Below are positions 22,153 to 33,151 of a stretch of DNA of 48,533 nt, piece after piece. The stretch's first letter is position 1, and each line of letters opens with the position of its first letter. Source of the stretch: a virus; the IMG/VR virus record IMGVR_UViG_3300031841_002893, positions 1 through 48,533 of that record; one strand, written 5' to 3'. The notes under the pieces were generated by a model that was not told the DNA's origin, searched no databases, and was given only the letters and a program-made list of their open reading frames with translations. Position numbers and translations under genes: made by a program.

Positions 22153-22878
22153 TTAATGTTCCATTATCTTAACATCCTTACTACCTTTGCCCTTTAGTCC
22201 AGAGCATAAGCCACACGTAGCGCAGTTAGATTTAAAGCCTGCTTCATTAGATGCAGGGCAAACCACTGCGTCTTCAGTGCCATCTTTGGTAGCTATAAAG
22301 CTACGATAGTTTAATTTTTTAGCTACGTCAGATTGGAATTGACTGTGGGTTGATGCCATAAAATAGTCACCATATCCTTCAGCCCAATCCTTTTTCCATT
22401 GGTGAGTATATCCTGTATAGCTATCGCTATAAGAAGCCATTTCCTCGACCAATGACAAGGGTAATAGACTTGGCTCACCATAAGTACCGAACCTTACATA
22501 CGTGCCGTAACACATATCGATAATTTCCATTCTTTTCTCATAATCCAAAGGAGTTAAATGGAATGGTTTTATGCTTCTTAGCATACTTAGAAACCCTACA
22601 TACTGGTTAAACTTGTGGGTATAACATCCTCCTTCGCCTTGATTTCCGCTAAAAGGACAATCCAAACAGTTACTTGCATCTAAGCTAAAGAATACTTTCA
22701 TTCCAAATCCTTCATGATTTGTAGCTAAAGTCCATTGCTCCATTGAAAATGTATACGTTTGAACCAACGGTTTACCATCGGTAATTTTCTTGTTGCTAGT
22801 TTTACCTTTCCATACAACAAATACATTTCCATTGTCTAACCATACAACTTTGTTGCTCTTTCGTTTTGAATTTCCCAT
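22153..22878 (-). CDS. cysteine-rich conserved phage protein, possible Fe-S protein
   Basis: 241 residues from the ATG at 22878 (MGNSKRKSNKVVWL). Two cysteine groups stand out: NCLDCPFSGNQGEGGCYTH near residue 68 and CPASNEAGF with CATCGLCSG near the C terminus. VRFGTYGEPSLLP in between recalls the GEP-containing strand of radical SAM proteins, but the canonical CxxxCxxC is absent. It resembles a widespread phage/plasmid family with an NCxxCPL...GCY motif (DUF7227-like, from memory). Metal or Fe-S binding is likely; the reaction is unknown. Confidence 0.55.
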   Translation of the reverse strand: MGNSKRKSNKVVWLDNGNVFVVWKGKTSNKKITDGKPLVQTYTFSMEQWTLATNHEGFGMKVFFSLDASNCLDCPFSGNQGEGGCYTHKFNQYVGFLSMLRSIKPFHLTPLDYEKRMEIIDMCYGTYVRFGTYGEPSLLPLSLVEEMASYSDSYTGYTHQWKKDWAEGYGDYFMASTHSQFQSDVAKKLNYRSFIATKDGTEDAVVCPASNEAGFKSNCATCGLCSGLKGKGSKDVKIMEH

Positions 22879-22880
22879 GA

Positions 22881-22964
22881 TTATTGTTTTAGTTCTTTGT
22901 ATGCTACCCATACTACGTGTGCTACTATTACTGCAAATGCAGTATAAAATATTATTTCGTACAT
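22881..22964 (-). CDS. 27-residue membrane peptide
   Basis: MYEIIFYTAFAVIVAHVVWVAY then KELKQ, a single hydrophobic span. It lies directly behind the promoter at 22986-23016, and its stop is 3 bases before the next ATG. Confidence 0.5.
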   Translation of the reverse strand: MYEIIFYTAFAVIVAHVVWVAYKELKQ

Positions 22965-22985
22965 AATTTCTACGATTTTGTTTGA

Positions 22986-23016
22986 CAAATGTATGCCTTT
23001 ACTTTAAGCCATCCAA
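22986..23016 (-). promoter_or_regulatory. promoter, Bacteroidota type
   Basis: Leftward TACATTTG (complement of 22986-22993), preceded after 20 bp by TTG (complement of 23014-23016). It would drive the membrane peptide and the Cys-rich gene. Confidence 0.65.
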
Positions 23017-23121
23017 TTATTTTCGACAAACTGCACGAAAATATCGGTAAACTGCATAACCTAGTGCTATAAGTACTACATAAGTACCCAATGCCATGTA
23101 ATAATCTACGATTGTATCCAT
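23017..23121 (-). CDS. 34-residue membrane peptide
   Basis: Started at the internal ATG 23121 (MDTIVDYYMALGTYVVLIALG), a single hydrophobic span with a basic C terminus (YRYFRAVCRK). The longer open frame upstream would overlap the preceding gene and lacks a plausible start. Confidence 0.45.
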   Translation of the reverse strand: MDTIVDYYMALGTYVVLIALGYAVYRYFRAVCRK

Positions 23122-23174
23122 TGTTTTTGTTTTATGGGCGCACCGTAGCACGCCCTGATGAGAGTGTTTTTTGT

Positions 23175-23426
23175 TTAATCTTCCCAAACGATTGCCACCG
23201 CAGGATTTTGCCATTCAAACCATAACCCTGCTTCCGCTAGGATTTCATTTAGCTTCTCGCTTCCCCACTTATTGCCATAATAATCCAGATTTTCTGTGGT
23301 ATCGTCTGTCAATCCTTCAGTCCATATCCAAAAGATTCCTCTATCTTCGTGTCCATCGATTGATTCTCGGACGGCAATATTCCTGTGCTTCAATTTATTG
23401 AATGCTCTTCTTTGTTTTTTGTTCAT
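23175..23426 (-). CDS. 83-residue protein, unknown
   Basis: MNKKQRRAFNKLKHRN, basic N terminus, then GIFWIWTEGLTDD and an acidic/aromatic C-terminal half. The start overlaps the stop of the 47-residue gene by 4 bases (ATGA). Confidence 0.55.
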   Translation of the reverse strand: MNKKQRRAFNKLKHRNIAVRESIDGHEDRGIFWIWTEGLTDDTTENLDYYGNKWGSEKLNEILAEAGLWFEWQNPAVAIVWED

Positions 23427-23566
23427 ATACTTAGATTTTTGGCACGCTCCTTTAGAACATCTGCCATTTTTTGCTTTGTTGCTTCGTAGGTTTCACCTAA
23501 CTGTGGTTTATATTCTTGCATAGCAAGATTAATCCATACTAAGTCTTGTATCGTTAGTTTTTCCAT
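23423..23566 (-). CDS. 47-residue helical protein, unknown
   Basis: MEKLTIQDLVWINLAMQEY, followed by a lysine-rich helix. It lies 3 bases after the RHH-like gene stop and overlaps the next start by 4 bases. Confidence 0.5.
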   Translation of the reverse strand: MEKLTIQDLVWINLAMQEYKPQLGETYEATKQKMADVLKERAKNLSI

Positions 23567-23569
23567 CGT

Positions 23570-23722
23570 TTATACTTTTGCTAATTCGTCCTCTAATTGG
23601 ATTAGTTTTATTGCTCTGTCTACGGAAATCCCCAATTCTTTGGCTCGTAATTTCCCTAGTTCATGTAACGGATTCCTCTCCCATCTAAGGGCTACTGTGG
23701 TATATATTCTCTTGCGTGCCAT
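23570..23722 (-). CDS. 50-residue possible ribbon-helix-helix DNA-binding protein
   Basis: Starts MARKRIYTTVALRWERN, a basic strand with alternating residues, then two helices (LHELGKLRAKELG, SVDRAIKLIQLEDEL). Strand-helix-helix in 50 residues is the layout of Arc/MetJ-type RHH repressors. It is the second gene of the leftward unit beside the iteron array, so it is a candidate binder of those repeats. No conserved RHH signature could be confirmed. Confidence 0.45.
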   Translation of the reverse strand: MARKRIYTTVALRWERNPLHELGKLRAKELGISVDRAIKLIQLEDELAKV

Positions 23723-23724
23723 AA

Positions 23725-23925
23725 TTATGCTTGATTATATCTAATTATATTAGATGTTATTTTTTTGGCTTCACCCAAACTTTTGGCGCAATAGCTTACC
23801 CTGTGCGCACCGTCTACATATTTGTGGACTAATGCCACGTAATTACTCGCTTGCGCTAGTGTAGTTTTTACCTCAATAAATTCTCCGAAGTTGTTTACAA
23901 CTTTTCTGTCTAAATTTAAGTCCAT
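23725..23925 (-). CDS. 66-residue protein, first gene of the left arm
   Basis: MDLNLDRKVVNNFGEFIEV, followed by a helix with a YVALVHKYVDG segment. Predicted alpha/beta. It is the first protein-coding gene left of the noncoding region. No family recognised. Confidence 0.55.
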   Translation of the reverse strand: MDLNLDRKVVNNFGEFIEVKTTLAQASNYVALVHKYVDGAHRVSYCAKSLGEAKKITSNIIRYNQA

Positions 23926-23944
23926 TTTGCTTATTTTTATGGAT

Positions 23945-24480
23945 TAATAGAGCCTATCCTAGTTCCGATGTTTAACCGCATAACGGTAGGTTACCGAAGG
24001 TAAAGTTTACCTCCATAGGCTGTGGTAATATGTAATATCCCAGTTTTTCTTGCTTAATACGATTCTTTTCCCTTACCTCGTTTTGATGACATTTCACCCC
24101 TCACCTTTTGCGCCCTATGATACCATATTGCTATTTTTCTTGGAGTGTTAACAGGTAATTATCCCCTGTTACCGTAGATGCCACGAAGGTACTCCTTGCG
24201 TGCTTACTCAACTGCGATTTCATTCTAATAAATTAGAACAATTTCTTTGTTTTTGCCATTTACATAATTTCCAAAAGGGTAGACCTATCTATGAATTATG
24301 TATGGATTTTGCGTACTTTGGATTCTGCTAGCTTATTCGCCCGCTCCATTTCCACGTAGGTATCACTTTGTCAACAACCTACTCTTAGACAGGGATTACT
24401 TCAGGGCAATCCCATACACCCTTGCATATCTATGACTATGCAACTCAGATTTAATATAGTAGCTAGTTTACTCTAGCAAA
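23945..24480 (-). ncRNA. candidate large structured RNA
   Basis: About 540 bases without a convincing ORF but packed with inverted repeats. Examples (plus coordinates): GCTAG/CTAGC 24463-24478, GCATA/TATGC 24424-24441, GGGATT/AATCCC 24393-24414, GTAGGT/ACCTAC about 24357-24382, TACATAATT/AATTATGTA about 24261-24303, TTCTAA/TTAGAA about 24223-24238, TAACAGG/CCTGTTA about 24149-24171 nested in GGAGT/ACTCC, and an AGCCTAT/ATAGGCT closing stem (23951-24020) around ACCG/CGGT and TTACC/GGTAA hairpins. Leftward transcription is suggested by TATGTTTG boxes at 24490-24497 and 24727-24734. Phage-borne giant RNAs such as ROOL and GOLLD are a possible comparison; no family is recognised. Confidence 0.45.
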
Positions 24481-24489
24481 TCAACAGTA

Positions 24490-24757
24490 CAAACATACAA
24501 ACTATTTTTCTAATTTCCTAATTTTTTCGATGAAATACACTTTTTATCGTTAAACTGCTTAAAAGCTAACTTTTACGGACGGTTACTAAGATATGACCTA
24601 CTATATTCGGGTTATCCTTTCACGTTGTCACACTACTTGTTAAGGTAGTCATAGTCAAGCTATGATAAAAAGGTAATAAAGAAATGATTAAGAACGTGTG
24701 TTAAACAGTATTTCGTTTGAACAGTACAAACATACGGCAAAGATTTGACATACCAAA
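24490..24757 (-). promoter_or_regulatory. two leftward -7 boxes in a duplicated 15-bp element
   Basis: ACAGTACAAACATAC occurs at 24484-24498 and again at about 24720-24734. On the minus strand each holds TATGTTTG. The right copy has a TTTG -33 box (complement of 24754-24757) 19 bp upstream; the left copy lacks one. They could drive the candidate RNA and the left arm. Confidence 0.5.
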
Positions 24758-25257
24758 ACGCTGATAATCAAGGAGTTAACGATATCAAAAAGGTATAAAA
24801 CCCTGATTTTAAGGGAGTTACAAGGCTGGAACAAATCCAAAAGTACATTCGATAAAATGCACAAATAATCGATGAAATGCACATTATTCGACGAAATGCA
24901 TGGTTTTATCGATAAACGACAGCCTAAGAATTGTTATATAAATGTAAGAATTGTTATAAATGTAACACAAATGTTATAAATGTAACAATATAAGGTAGTT
25001 AGACTATGCAGTTAATCGATGAAATGATACAGTTAATCGATACATGCATGTTAATACTAGGTAATAGGATACACGTGATAACCTATTCATTCGACAATAC
25101 CAAATATATTCGATGAACTGCACGATAAAAACGTTCAAATACATGATAACTGAACATTTCACCTGTTTAAAGGTAGTTTAACGATATTAGTTAACCGTTT
25201 ATCGATGAAAATAGCTAATTATCGTTGAAATGTACGATTTATCCGATGAAATGCAAC
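24526..25257. repeat. iteron array, consensus ATCGATGAAATGCAC (candidate origin or operator array)
   Basis: About ten degenerate copies of a 15-16 bp motif in the same orientation: 24526-24540, 24847-24862, 24867-24882, 24886-24901, 24906-24920, 25014-25030, 25035-25049, 25108-25123, 25199-25214, 25221-25235 and 25241-25257. The best copies differ at 1-2 positions. Between them are three TTGTTATA(TA)AATGTAA repeats (24926-24985). The stretch is very AT-rich, has no genes and lies where the two arms diverge, as expected for a replication origin or a regulator-binding array. Confidence 0.7.
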
Positions 25258-25398
25258 ATGGGGGTACTTCTAAATTCGGTTTTCGTATCGACCCACCCGA
25301 CTCGGAATATTATATGCAGCCTTCTCTCTCTTATTATCTAACTGGTTTAAGCGATATCGTGATAATCGCATGGGGGGTACTTTATATAGAGGGTACTT
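25258..25398. other. gene-free stretch with GGGTACTT repeats
   Basis: CATGGGGGTACTT at 25257-25268 recurs as CATGGGGGGTACTT at 25369-25382, and GGGTACTT again at 25391-25398. A GCGAT/ATCGC hairpin lies near 25352-25370. A 33-codon leftward ORF (25270-25371) has no ribosome-binding site and is not called a gene. Confidence 0.5.
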
Positions 25399-25399
25399 A

Positions 25400-25640
25400 A
25401 ATATAGGTAAGTTTTATTATACAGCTATACTCGACTGTAAGGGAGAGGGTATATTCATTCACAGTTTGCCACCCCTAGTCAATTTGTGTTGTGTTAGCTA
25501 TTCACTTGTTAGCTGTTGTACTGGGAAGTTTGAATGATACTGGTGGCTCGAATTGACTTAAAGGATATCGCAATTTCTTCACAGATTTAATATTGCTCGT
25601 TCCAAGTGTCGTAGTTACACAAGTTTTGGATTATCTGACC
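25400..25640. other. second structured noncoding block with possible pseudoknot
   Basis: No ORF is convincing. Inverted repeats: TACAG/CTGTA 25420-25439, AGCTA/TAGCT about 25495-25513, GTGT/ACAC about 25607-25620. Two longer pairings cross each other: GCCACC 25468-25473 with GGTGGC 25542-25547, and AGTCAATT 25477-25484 with AATTGACT 25551-25558. A leftward TATCTTTG box is at 25648-25655. This could be an RNA, or DNA structure at the origin. Confidence 0.4.
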
Positions 25641-25721
25641 ACTGGTACAAAGATAAGGAAAAGTAATTTAACTTTTAGTGTAAAAATATAACACTTTGTT
25701 ACAAATATAACAATTTAATGA

Positions 25722-25753
25722 TTTGCAGTTTATGATATTATTTCGTACCTTTG
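25722..25753 (+). promoter_or_regulatory. rightward promoter of the right arm
   Basis: TTTG at 25722-25725, 20 bp, TACCTTTG at 25746-25753. It starts the chain of plus-strand microgenes. The first ATG (25759) is only 5 bases downstream, so that message would be nearly leaderless. Confidence 0.85.
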
Positions 25754-25758
25754 TGCGT

Positions 25759-25902
25759 ATGCACAGACGGACTGGTATTATAATAAAAGACTCCTATGAA
25801 GTAAGTGCGTCTGAAATAGTATGGACGCAGTGGTATGAAGACCCTGATACTGGTGAAATCTTTCGAGTAGTTATAGAGGATGAAAAATGGACGGAGATAT
25901 GA
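25759..25902 (+). CDS. 47-residue protein, unknown
   Basis: MHRRTGIIIKDSYEVSASEI, then a WTQWYEDPDTGEIF hairpin-like segment. Predicted beta-rich. It follows the promoter without room for a normal leader, so it is either leaderless or not translated. Its end overlaps the next gene. Confidence 0.45.
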   Translation: MHRRTGIIIKDSYEVSASEIVWTQWYEDPDTGEIFRVVIEDEKWTEI

Positions 25903-26009
25903 TAGCGATAATAACAGTAATGGGGTGTAGTATATGTTTCCTTTGTGGGATACTGTTCCATAGGAATTGGCTACAATACCAAAAACACAAGAAGAATGAC
26001 AGACGATGA
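25887..26009 (+). CDS. 40-residue single-span membrane protein
   Basis: MDGDMIAIITVMGCSICFLCG then a basic tail (HKKNDRR). The ATG at 25887 is preceded by GAGGATGAAA, a plausible binding site; 25899 is an alternative start that overlaps the upstream stop (ATGA). Confidence 0.5.
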   Translation: MDGDMIAIITVMGCSICFLCGILFHRNWLQYQKHKKNDRR

Positions 26010-26118
26010 ATTAATCAGGATGCATTACCTATCTGAAAGAGGGTTGATTGTTTACGACCCTAGATATTACTTTACAACCCCTCCCCCAATAGATGATTGC
26101 GAAGAAATAGAGATATGA
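25996..26118 (+). CDS. 40-residue acidic protein, unknown
   Basis: MTDDELIRMHYLSERGL, followed by YDPRYYFTTPPP. It overlaps both neighbours by a few bases, consistent with coupled translation in the microgene chain. Confidence 0.5.
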   Translation: MTDDELIRMHYLSERGLIVYDPRYYFTTPPPIDDCEEIEI

Positions 26119-26240
26119 AGAAGATTATCCGTACAAGAGAGGAAGAATTAGATGCTACTAGACCAAATGTCTATCGTAACAGGAAGAAATATACCAGAAA
26201 AACAAAACATGAAAAAAGAAGTAACGATATCTTGGAGTAA
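26115..26240 (+). CDS. 41-residue basic protein, unknown
   Basis: MKKIIRTREEELDATRP, then an Arg/Lys-rich region (NRKKYTRKTKHEKR). The composition suggests nucleic-acid binding. Starts at an ATGA overlap and overlaps the next gene by 32 bases. Confidence 0.45.
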   Translation: MKKIIRTREEELDATRPNVYRNRKKYTRKTKHEKRSNDILE

Positions 26241-26331
26241 ATTCAAGGAATTACACAAAATGGGTTGGATTGACCCAAGCGTGGTGTATAATGTGTACCA
26301 CGATAACTCAGAAAAACTAGAAAAATCATGA
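26209..26331 (+). CDS. 40-residue protein, unknown
   Basis: MKKEVTISWSKFKELHKMG, then WIDPSVVYNVY. Overlaps the next start by 4 bases (ATGA), which favours it being real. Confidence 0.45.
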   Translation: MKKEVTISWSKFKELHKMGWIDPSVVYNVYHDNSEKLEKS

Positions 26332-26432
26332 AGAAATTATTTTTAAGAATAGTATTACCGTTGTGTTTGATTCTTTTCATAGCAGTGGGATTTTGGTATT
26401 TGGTATCAACACTAATATTGGGTAAAATATAA
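26328..26432 (+). CDS. 34-residue membrane peptide
   Basis: MKKLFLRIVLPLCLILFIAV and a continuing hydrophobic span. Possibly a signal-anchored microprotein. Starts at an ATGA overlap. Confidence 0.5.
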   Translation: MKKLFLRIVLPLCLILFIAVGFWYLVSTLILGKI

Positions 26433-26439
26433 CTAGAAA

Positions 26440-27066
26440 ATGAAGTGGATTAAATTTATATCGTATCAATTAGCTAAACTTATAATGTATCCCTATGGAC
26501 TTATAGTATATCCTTTGGCATACGTGTTACGTAAGGTAATACGTAAGTATAAGAAGGTGTTTTTTATATTATGGGTGGTATTAGACGATGAAGAAGACTA
26601 TGGTGAGCCATTTTTTATGGTAGGGAGGAAGAAAAACTTCTGGACATCCTATCAATGGGCTGCAATTCGCAATAATTGTTGGAATTTCCACTCATTATTC
26701 TCAAAAAAAGTGGCTGCACCTCATGTTTTCCCTACAAAACGACTTAAATGGGAGTATAGAGAGCCTGTTAAGACTACGGAGTACATAGGTTATGGGTATA
26801 GATGGGTAGATGGATGGACAGTTAACAAAGGTGAACGTCTTTCAGAACGTTATAGCACGCTTGGATGGGATAACAGAGATATTATATGTCTGGATTCTTG
26901 GGGAAACGAAGTAAAGCTGTGGACTATCTCCTATGCAGGTAGATGGAAATGGTTTTTAATCAATATAAAGCTAGGTTGGAACGACTTAGGTCAGCAAATT
27001 ATAGAATTTAAGGTAAAAATTTATAAAAAGTATTATACTAATCATTGGGAAAACCCTTTACACTAA
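26440..27066 (+). CDS. conserved phage protein with N-terminal hydrophobic segments (DUF7338-like)
   Basis: 208 residues, unusually rich in Trp and Tyr. An N-terminal amphipathic/hydrophobic region (about 1-50, IMYPYGLIVYPLAYVL, then VFFILWVVL) may associate with the membrane. Then come DDEEDYGEPFFMVGRKKNFW and AIRNNCWNFHS, a pattern resembling a widespread phage family (DUF7338, from memory) of unknown function. It follows the microgene chain with a 7-base gap. Confidence 0.55.
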   Translation: MKWIKFISYQLAKLIMYPYGLIVYPLAYVLRKVIRKYKKVFFILWVVLDDEEDYGEPFFMVGRKKNFWTSYQWAAIRNNCWNFHSLFSKKVAAPHVFPTKRLKWEYREPVKTTEYIGYGYRWVDGWTVNKGERLSERYSTLGWDNRDIICLDSWGNEVKLWTISYAGRWKWFLINIKLGWNDLGQQIIEFKVKIYKKYYTNHWENPLH

Positions 27067-27803: not shown

Positions 27804-28364
27804 ATGAATTTAAAATTAAATGATATGGTAATTGAAGGAAGTAAAGTAATCGACTACGACATGGCAACCACTAGAGGAATGCACCTCATTAGGAGTGGAC
27901 ACAACAAAACTTTAGGGCTTTTAATCCTATGTGGGGTTAATTTCGGTTTGAGAATCACCGACTTGTTGGGCATCTCGTATGACCAACTAAAATCGGGTGA
28001 GTTTGTGGTGAATGAGCAGAAGACTGGGAAACGAAGGGTAATTAGGGTTAATCAAACTATTAAGGTGGCATTAAGGCACATGATAGATGAACCTAGATAT
28101 CAACTCGGAGGGATGGTGTTTGTATCGCAGAAAGGAAGTGTATATTCACCTCAACACGTAAATAGGCTGTTAAAGAAGGTATTTGGTGAAGGTTATTCTA
28201 GTCATGGACTACGTAAAGGCTTTGGAAGGAGACTATACGAAAAAAAGGATAAGGACTTAGCCATAGTCCAAATGCAACTACAGCACAACAACCCTGCCGA
28301 TACTTTACGATATATTGGCGTTACCCAAGAGAAATTAGACGAATGTTTCGATGATTTGATATGA
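27804..28364 (+). CDS. short tyrosine recombinase (integrase family)
   Basis: 186 residues comprising essentially only the catalytic domain. All expected active-site residues are present: R50 (GLRITD), K76 (TGKRR), H134 and R137 (SSHGLRKGF), H161 (LQHNN) and the nucleophile Y170 (LRYIGV). The usual N-terminal core-binding domain is missing. Because the promoter ends two bases before 27804, translation may really start at the ATG at 27825 (MVIEGSKVID). Its role could be integration or resolution of genome multimers; no attachment site was found. Confidence 0.8.
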   Translation: MNLKLNDMVIEGSKVIDYDMATTRGMHLIRSGHNKTLGLLILCGVNFGLRITDLLGISYDQLKSGEFVVNEQKTGKRRVIRVNQTIKVALRHMIDEPRYQLGGMVFVSQKGSVYSPQHVNRLLKKVFGEGYSSHGLRKGFGRRLYEKKDKDLAIVQMQLQHNNPADTLRYIGVTQEKLDECFDDLI

Positions 28365-33079: not shown

Positions 33080-33151
33080 GGCTCAGTAGCTCAGGGGTAG
33101 AGCGATTGACTGTTAATCAATTTGTCGTAGGTTCAAATCCTACCTGAGCCT
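33080..33151 (+). tRNA. tRNA-Asn, anticodon GTT
   Basis: Complete 72-nt cloverleaf: acceptor GGCTCAG/CTGAGCC, D-stem GCTC/GAGC, anticodon stem ATTGA/TCAAT with loop CTGTTAA, T-stem GTAGG/CCTAC with loop TTCAAAT, discriminator T. The CCA end is not encoded. It is the only tRNA I could fold in the window. Confidence 0.95.

Follow-up and report, generated by a model that had tools for sequence, protein, structure and literature searches.

A predicted large structured RNA ahead of the early genes in a marine flavobacterial phage and its relatives

Genome context and nearest relatives

What occupies the roughly 540 nt ahead of the first early gene at the centre of this phage genome, where no convincing gene is apparent? 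A first-pass annotation, made from the letters alone, had proposed one large ornate non-coding RNA at 23945-24480, possibly akin to the giant phage RNAs ROOL and GOLLD. The window, by which we mean the whole stretch of DNA analysed, is a 48.5-kb virus record (IMGVR_UViG_3300031841_002893) and a marine flavobacterial phage genome, with two arms transcribed outward from a central gap (23926-26440). The leftward arm encodes a B12-type ribonucleotide reductase, thymidylate synthase, primase, replication initiator and exonuclease, and the rightward arm an integrase, a chaperonin and structural genes.

Maribacter phage Panino (PP540027), the closest phage described so far, has the same gene order and is 79%, 66% and 61% identical to the window in ribonucleotide reductase, primase and chaperonin, respectively. 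A scan of bacterial genomes with a reductase alignment located a second relative, L075, a 78.9-kb phage-like contig binned in a Lacinutrix metagenome-assembled genome (MAG), again with the gene order of the window (reductase 81%, chaperonin 63-64% identity). A short tyrosine recombinase of 186 aa (27804-28364, plus strand) is present in all three; Panino has been reported as virulent despite this gene (PMC11590407). The leftward arm also encodes a 252-aa protein without assigned function (22153-22911, minus strand), which has relatives of 46-71% identity at 43 loci, many in otherwise unlike phages, and distant relatives in mycobacterial and Gordonia phages.

A hairpin-rich gap with little coding capacity

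The abundance of inverted repeats reported for 23945-24480 holds up against chance: there are 16 perfect stems of at least 5 bp (loop 3-20), compared with 8.1 +/- 2.8 in dinucleotide shuffles, a count reached in none of 200, and six stems of at least 6 bp compared with 1.9 (reached in 2 of 200). The folding energy of the gap is ordinary (z = -1.2 on the leftward strand, -0.3 on the opposite strand), so hairpins or single-sequence folding alone could not have proved a structured RNA.

Coding capacity is slight, as the first reading had it, the leftward strand offering only two small ORFs, neither of them conserved:

24131-24223, minus strand: small ORF of 30 aa, without counterpart in L075
23972-24097, minus strand: small ORF of 41 aa with a GTG start, without counterpart in L075

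Panino 470-1150 likewise holds no convincing plus-strand gene. The five small ORFs annotated there lie on the opposite strand (PP540027.1 501-1147, minus strand), over the conserved RNA, and are probably spurious. Such ORFs, in the window and in Panino, are what might be expected if the stretch were no RNA at all, consisting rather of diverged remains of small genes or of repeats that matter as DNA. However, the ORFs within the RNAs of the three phages lie at different positions, have different sequences and are not common to the phages. Protein-like conservation of one frame had been named beforehand as one outcome that would count against an RNA; no reading frame is conserved across the three.

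Tandem promoters and a homologous block in three phages

Flavobacterial promoters of the form TTG-N19-20-TAnnTTTG are readily visible in the window genome. The first-pass annotation had placed the gap downstream of leftward -7 boxes, and this proved correct, with TATGTTTG at 24497-24490 and a full promoter at 24756-24727 both reading in:

24727-24756, minus strand: promoter P1, TTG-N19-TATGTTTG, with equivalents at Panino ~213-243 and L075 ~12209-12179
24490-24497, minus strand: -7 box TATGTTTG of promoter P2, whose -33 element is degenerate in the window and TTG-N20 in Panino and L075
24590-24616, minus strand: hairpin with loop CGAATATAGTA in the block between P1 and P2, which would be read only from P1; covariation across the three phages
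24526-25256, plus strand: ~11 copies of the iteron-like ATCGATGAAATGCAC, upstream of the RNA and between the leftward and rightward promoters
23951-24484, minus strand: predicted structured RNA of ~535 nt in its P2 form, with covariation and no Rfam match; homologous blocks at Panino 706-1250 and L075 11985-11377 (minus strand)

The 5' end of the RNA was placed ~6 nt after the P2 -7 box, and its 3' end was taken as the closing helix. Panino 573-1266 aligns with L075 12107-11360 (minus strand) at an E value of 7e-65 and 65% identity, and the window aligns with Panino in collinear blocks (E 2e-4 to 4e-3) that correspond to the promoter boxes, ACAACGTGAAAGNNNAACCC, CATCTACGGT and GGGGTGANATGNNANNAAAACGAGG. 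At the P2 -7 box, GTATGTTTGTAC is identical across the three phages. The order is the same in each, namely P1, a short block, P2, the RNA, and early small ORFs including a conserved 50-aa protein, and the conserved unit reaches upstream into the P1-P2 block (~24720-24500). The comparison draws on three homologues in total, and the 5' part of the window RNA is supported by synteny and short similarity.

Further homologues were sought by several routes. Among 50,697 phage records, DNA similarity to the gap brought up only the neighbouring 50-aa gene of Panino, and the 43 loci with a relative of the 252-aa protein have no DNA in common with the gap. The 66-aa ORF that follows the RNA, a 208-aa protein and an AAA protein yielded no syntenic relative when used as queries, while the chaperonin yielded one near relative (L047), ending short of the gap. 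Two DNA patterns drawn from the conserved blocks matched only at chance sites in unrelated phages. In the Panino paper (PMC11590407) the words non-coding, noncoding and ncRNA are absent.

The ATCGATGAAATGCAC array is a candidate replication origin or operator array, and the GC skew changes sign there, at ~25 kb. It could be, then, that the RNA is tied to an origin, as a replication primer or regulator whose transcription leads away from the array; the repeats lie just upstream of it in the window, and four iteron-like sites lie upstream of the RNA in L075. Panino, however, has the RNA, and the iteron motif was not found in that phage, and we consider an origin-linked RNA quite improbable.

Covariation and strand

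Covariation among homologues had been set in advance as a test of the proposed RNA, and it is present in the junction domain, the closing helix and the P1-P2 hairpin. The domains, from 5' to 3', are:

24463-24476, minus strand: 5' hairpin CTAGAG-TAAA-CTAG just after P2, where L075 has CTAGAGTTTAACTAG; alignment only, no covariation
24070-24190, minus strand: three-way-junction domain with covariation; equivalent at Panino 1020-1101
23951-24021, minus strand: 3' domain with covariation, in which a closing helix (24021-24015 with 23957-23951) surrounds inner hairpins

In the junction domain, 59 of 60 cells are paired and 9 of 20 pairs are changed on both sides (0 of 500 shuffles); these counts come from an alignment fitted to the structure, with a plain MAFFT alignment, 94.9% are paired and the number of doubly changed pairs is again nine. 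When partners were slid by one to three columns, only 0-2 doubly changed pairs resulted, compared with nine. The domain carries the conserved motifs UCUACGG, a UAAU loop, UGAAAU and AAACGAGGYAA, with an insertion of ~36 nt within one arm in the window. The pattern is clearest in the six-pair hairpin around the UAAU loop, which reads CAUAAU/AUUAUG in Panino, CGUAUG/CAUACG in L075 and AACAGG/CCUGUU in the window. Two junction positions hold G-U pairs on the leftward strand that would be C-A on the opposite strand, so the pairing fits only the leftward strand. Paired changes confined to the proposed register argue against gene remains or DNA repeats, an explanation that we disfavour as exceedingly improbable.

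The AGCCTAT/ATAGGCT closing helix noted at first reading is real. Its counterparts are GTCTACGG/CCGTAGAC in Panino and GCCTGTGT/ACACAGGC in L075, with four of eight pairs changed on both sides across the three phages (reached in 12 of 500 shuffles); some of the hand-drawn helices of the 3' domain depend on the register chosen. The P1-P2 hairpin has three of six pairs so changed; its covariation score is reached in 20 of 500 shuffles, a weaker support. The middle part of the window RNA does not align with either relative. Panino and L075 have four helices in common in the middle of their RNAs, with seven double changes. Two of the four, one of them without any variation, are proposed to form an H-type pseudoknot.

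A covariance model trained on the Panino and L075 sequences only (R3) finds the window at 24190-24070 (minus strand) with 57.9 bits and an E value of 1.4e-11, its sole match in 404 kb; the search was near-blind, being blind for letters and not wholly for structure, since the base-pair annotation came from the three-sequence analysis that included the window. Model R1, run over ~790 Flavobacteriaceae/Flavobacteriales genomes, found only the MAG already known.

The proposal of one large, structured, leftward RNA is thus supported by homologues in the same place, by covariation, by G-U pairs that suit only the leftward strand and by conserved promoters. Comparison of the three genomes shows a conserved non-coding block, with a predicted structure on its leftward strand, between the conserved promoters and the early genes.

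Early genes downstream of the RNA

The closing helix ends 26 nt before the ATG (23925) of the first of two small early ORFs:

23725-23925, minus strand: first early ORF, 66 aa, no relative found
23570-23722, minus strand: second gene downstream, a 50-aa ORF conserved in L075 and Panino (PANI_CDS0012)

The 50-aa ORF is matched in L075 by tblastn at 69% over 48 aa (E 7e-19), and by eye is a candidate ribbon-helix-helix-like protein. The first ORF after the RNA differs in each of the three phages while the RNA is retained, which argues against control of one gene. This bears on the possibility that the RNA is a 5' UTR whose working part is the closing helix by the start codon and which governs translation or RNA stability of the first small early ORF. 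The short distance from helix to ATG and a conserved CTAAT/ACTAAYC stretch after the closing helix in the relatives fit such a role; yet that ORF is not conserved between phages and the bulk of the conserved structure is found 150-240 nt before the start codon, and we regard the explanation as improbable.

No intrinsic terminator was found between the RNA and the early genes. The RNA would on this account be at least a leader of the early operon, and its release would need processing, none of which was seen.

Comparison with known RNAs

The put elements of phage HK022 are short stem-loops working in both of its early arms, where they act in cis against pausing and termination. Like HK022 put, a nascent RNA element (PMC9378689), the gap RNA is a structured RNA in a phage early-operon leader without a protein gene of its own, and it differs in being several times longer, in lying in one arm only and in having no match. 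The main rival to our favoured reading is that the RNA is a cis-acting leader which stays with RNA polymerase as nascent RNA in the manner of put, or protects the transcript, and so serves readthrough or stability of the operon. Its place at the head of the operon, immediately behind the promoters and not separated from the genes by a terminator, its retention although first ORFs differ, and a structured element right before the first early ORF in a second group of phages, whose early arm is a different one, are all consistent with this. Against it, a candidate ATG follows the rightward promoter (25723-25753) within ~10 nt and leaves no room for a leader, so that put-like elements in both arms were not found, and 535 nt far exceeds the size needed; we hold a cis-acting leader to be possible, if on balance unlikely.

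The suggested kinship to ROOL or GOLLD was not supported. In Rfam cmscan searches of the window at gathering thresholds, and of 22900-26440 at E values up to 5, the gap RNA had no match to ROOL, GOLLD or any other family, and Rfam searches of Panino and 16 loci returned nothing relevant, with neither ROOL nor GOLLD in Panino. ROOL and GOLLD frequently lie close to tRNA islands, and GOLLD is reported to increase in the course of lysis (PMC12286853). The only tRNA found is a tRNA-Asn at 33080, 8.6 kb away, and the tRNA islands of Panino lie ~24 kb and 10 kb from its RNA; no tRNA island is adjacent in the window. The likeness to GOLLD is that both are large structured phage RNAs, GOLLD being often over 800 nt and of unsettled function, whereas the gap RNA lacks an Rfam match, does not stand beside tRNA genes and heads an early operon. 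A further trait of GOLLD is its RNA-only multimer, a nanocage. With ROOL it has in common its size class, several domains, a possible pseudoknot and a phage origin, and it differs in the same lack of a match, in its distance from any tRNA island and in being continuous with the early operon. OLE RNA, also a large structured RNA, is co-transcribed with neighbouring protein genes and is known from extremophilic bacteria rather than phages; the gap RNA has no Rfam match, is phage-encoded and has other gene neighbours. ARAGORN found no tmRNA in the window, L048, L049 or L075, and Rfam gave no tmRNA match. An annotated tmRNA in Panino (PP540027.1 27557-27889; L082 7558-7890) is probably spurious; two tRNA annotations (Asp, Thr) overlap with it.

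With a structure conserved by covariation, no coding function and a phage genome as carrier, the gap RNA belongs to the large structured phage RNAs in general, and among them it makes up a new family whose location is unusual. We hypothesize that at the onset of infection host RNA polymerase would start at the tandem flavobacterial promoters P1 and P2 and read leftward, and that the first ~535 nt (from P2) or ~770 nt (from P1) would fold into several domains, in the order 5' hairpin region, variable middle, conserved three-way junction and 3' domain closed by AGCCTAT/ATAGGCT, with the early genes following 26 nt after. As OLE, ROOL or GOLLD do, the RNA may then work as an RNA on its own account, whether it is freed from the early transcript or stays at its head, and not as regulator of one gene. 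We favour this reading, at a probability of about one half, because of the size of the RNA, its several domains and its indifference to the downstream gene; transcription, the strand used in vivo, release and action in trans are what we infer for it from sequence.

The functions of large phage RNAs are unsettled, and the new family has a cultured member in Panino, which grows on M. halichondriae, so that transcript mapping, deletion and pull-downs are possible. Position at the head of an early operon points to the first minutes of infection, unlike the lysis-associated GOLLD. Gaps in Bacteroidota phages that look empty, or that carry too many annotated ORFs, can conceal structured RNA.

A related junction in a second phage group

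Seven further loci (L026, L031, L032, L034, L035, L042 and L043) form a second group, with a relative of the 252-aa protein and a divergent chaperonin. Directly before their first early ORF is a three-way junction in which 12 of 16 pairs covary (alignment A11, which includes Panino). A model of this junction built from group members only (R2) has as its top leader matches Panino 1205-1260 (E 1.4e-4) and L075 11366-11419 (E 6e-5), the next being 14 bits lower; chance matches of R2 in whole genomes score 25-28 bits. R2 misses the 3' domain of the window, so the two phage groups are linked through Panino and L075 only, and a 3' domain common to both groups is plausible, not proved. Run over the ~790 genomes, R2 gave three weak matches that were judged chance, having broken pairs, loss of an arm or an overlapping ORF.

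It is tempting to speculate that large structured RNAs of one widespread class stand at the start of early transcripts in Bacteroidota phages, with a related 3' three-way junction, differing upstream domains and a role in the first steps of host takeover, although we think this broader generalization doubtful.

Upstream of the junction, some leaders of the second group also carry a T-arm-like hairpin (e.g. GGTGGTTCGATTCCATC) enclosed by a stem of 5-6 bp, after which comes a conserved stretch resembling TATATAAGCGNGGTG:

L031 6540: T-arm-like hairpin
L028 8929: T-arm-like hairpin
L032 8224: T-arm-like hairpin
L042 9141: T-arm-like hairpin
L043 8081: T-arm-like hairpin

Between early genes of L031 (6824-6888, plus strand), and by eye also in L028 and L032, there is an element resembling a hammerhead ribozyme. 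In L031 it reads CUGANGAG...CGAAAC...GUC with stem I GGUUAA/UUAACC, and it scores 26.7 bits (E 0.065, below gathering) as a RAGATH-1 hammerhead; such an element could mean that early transcripts of these phages cleave themselves.
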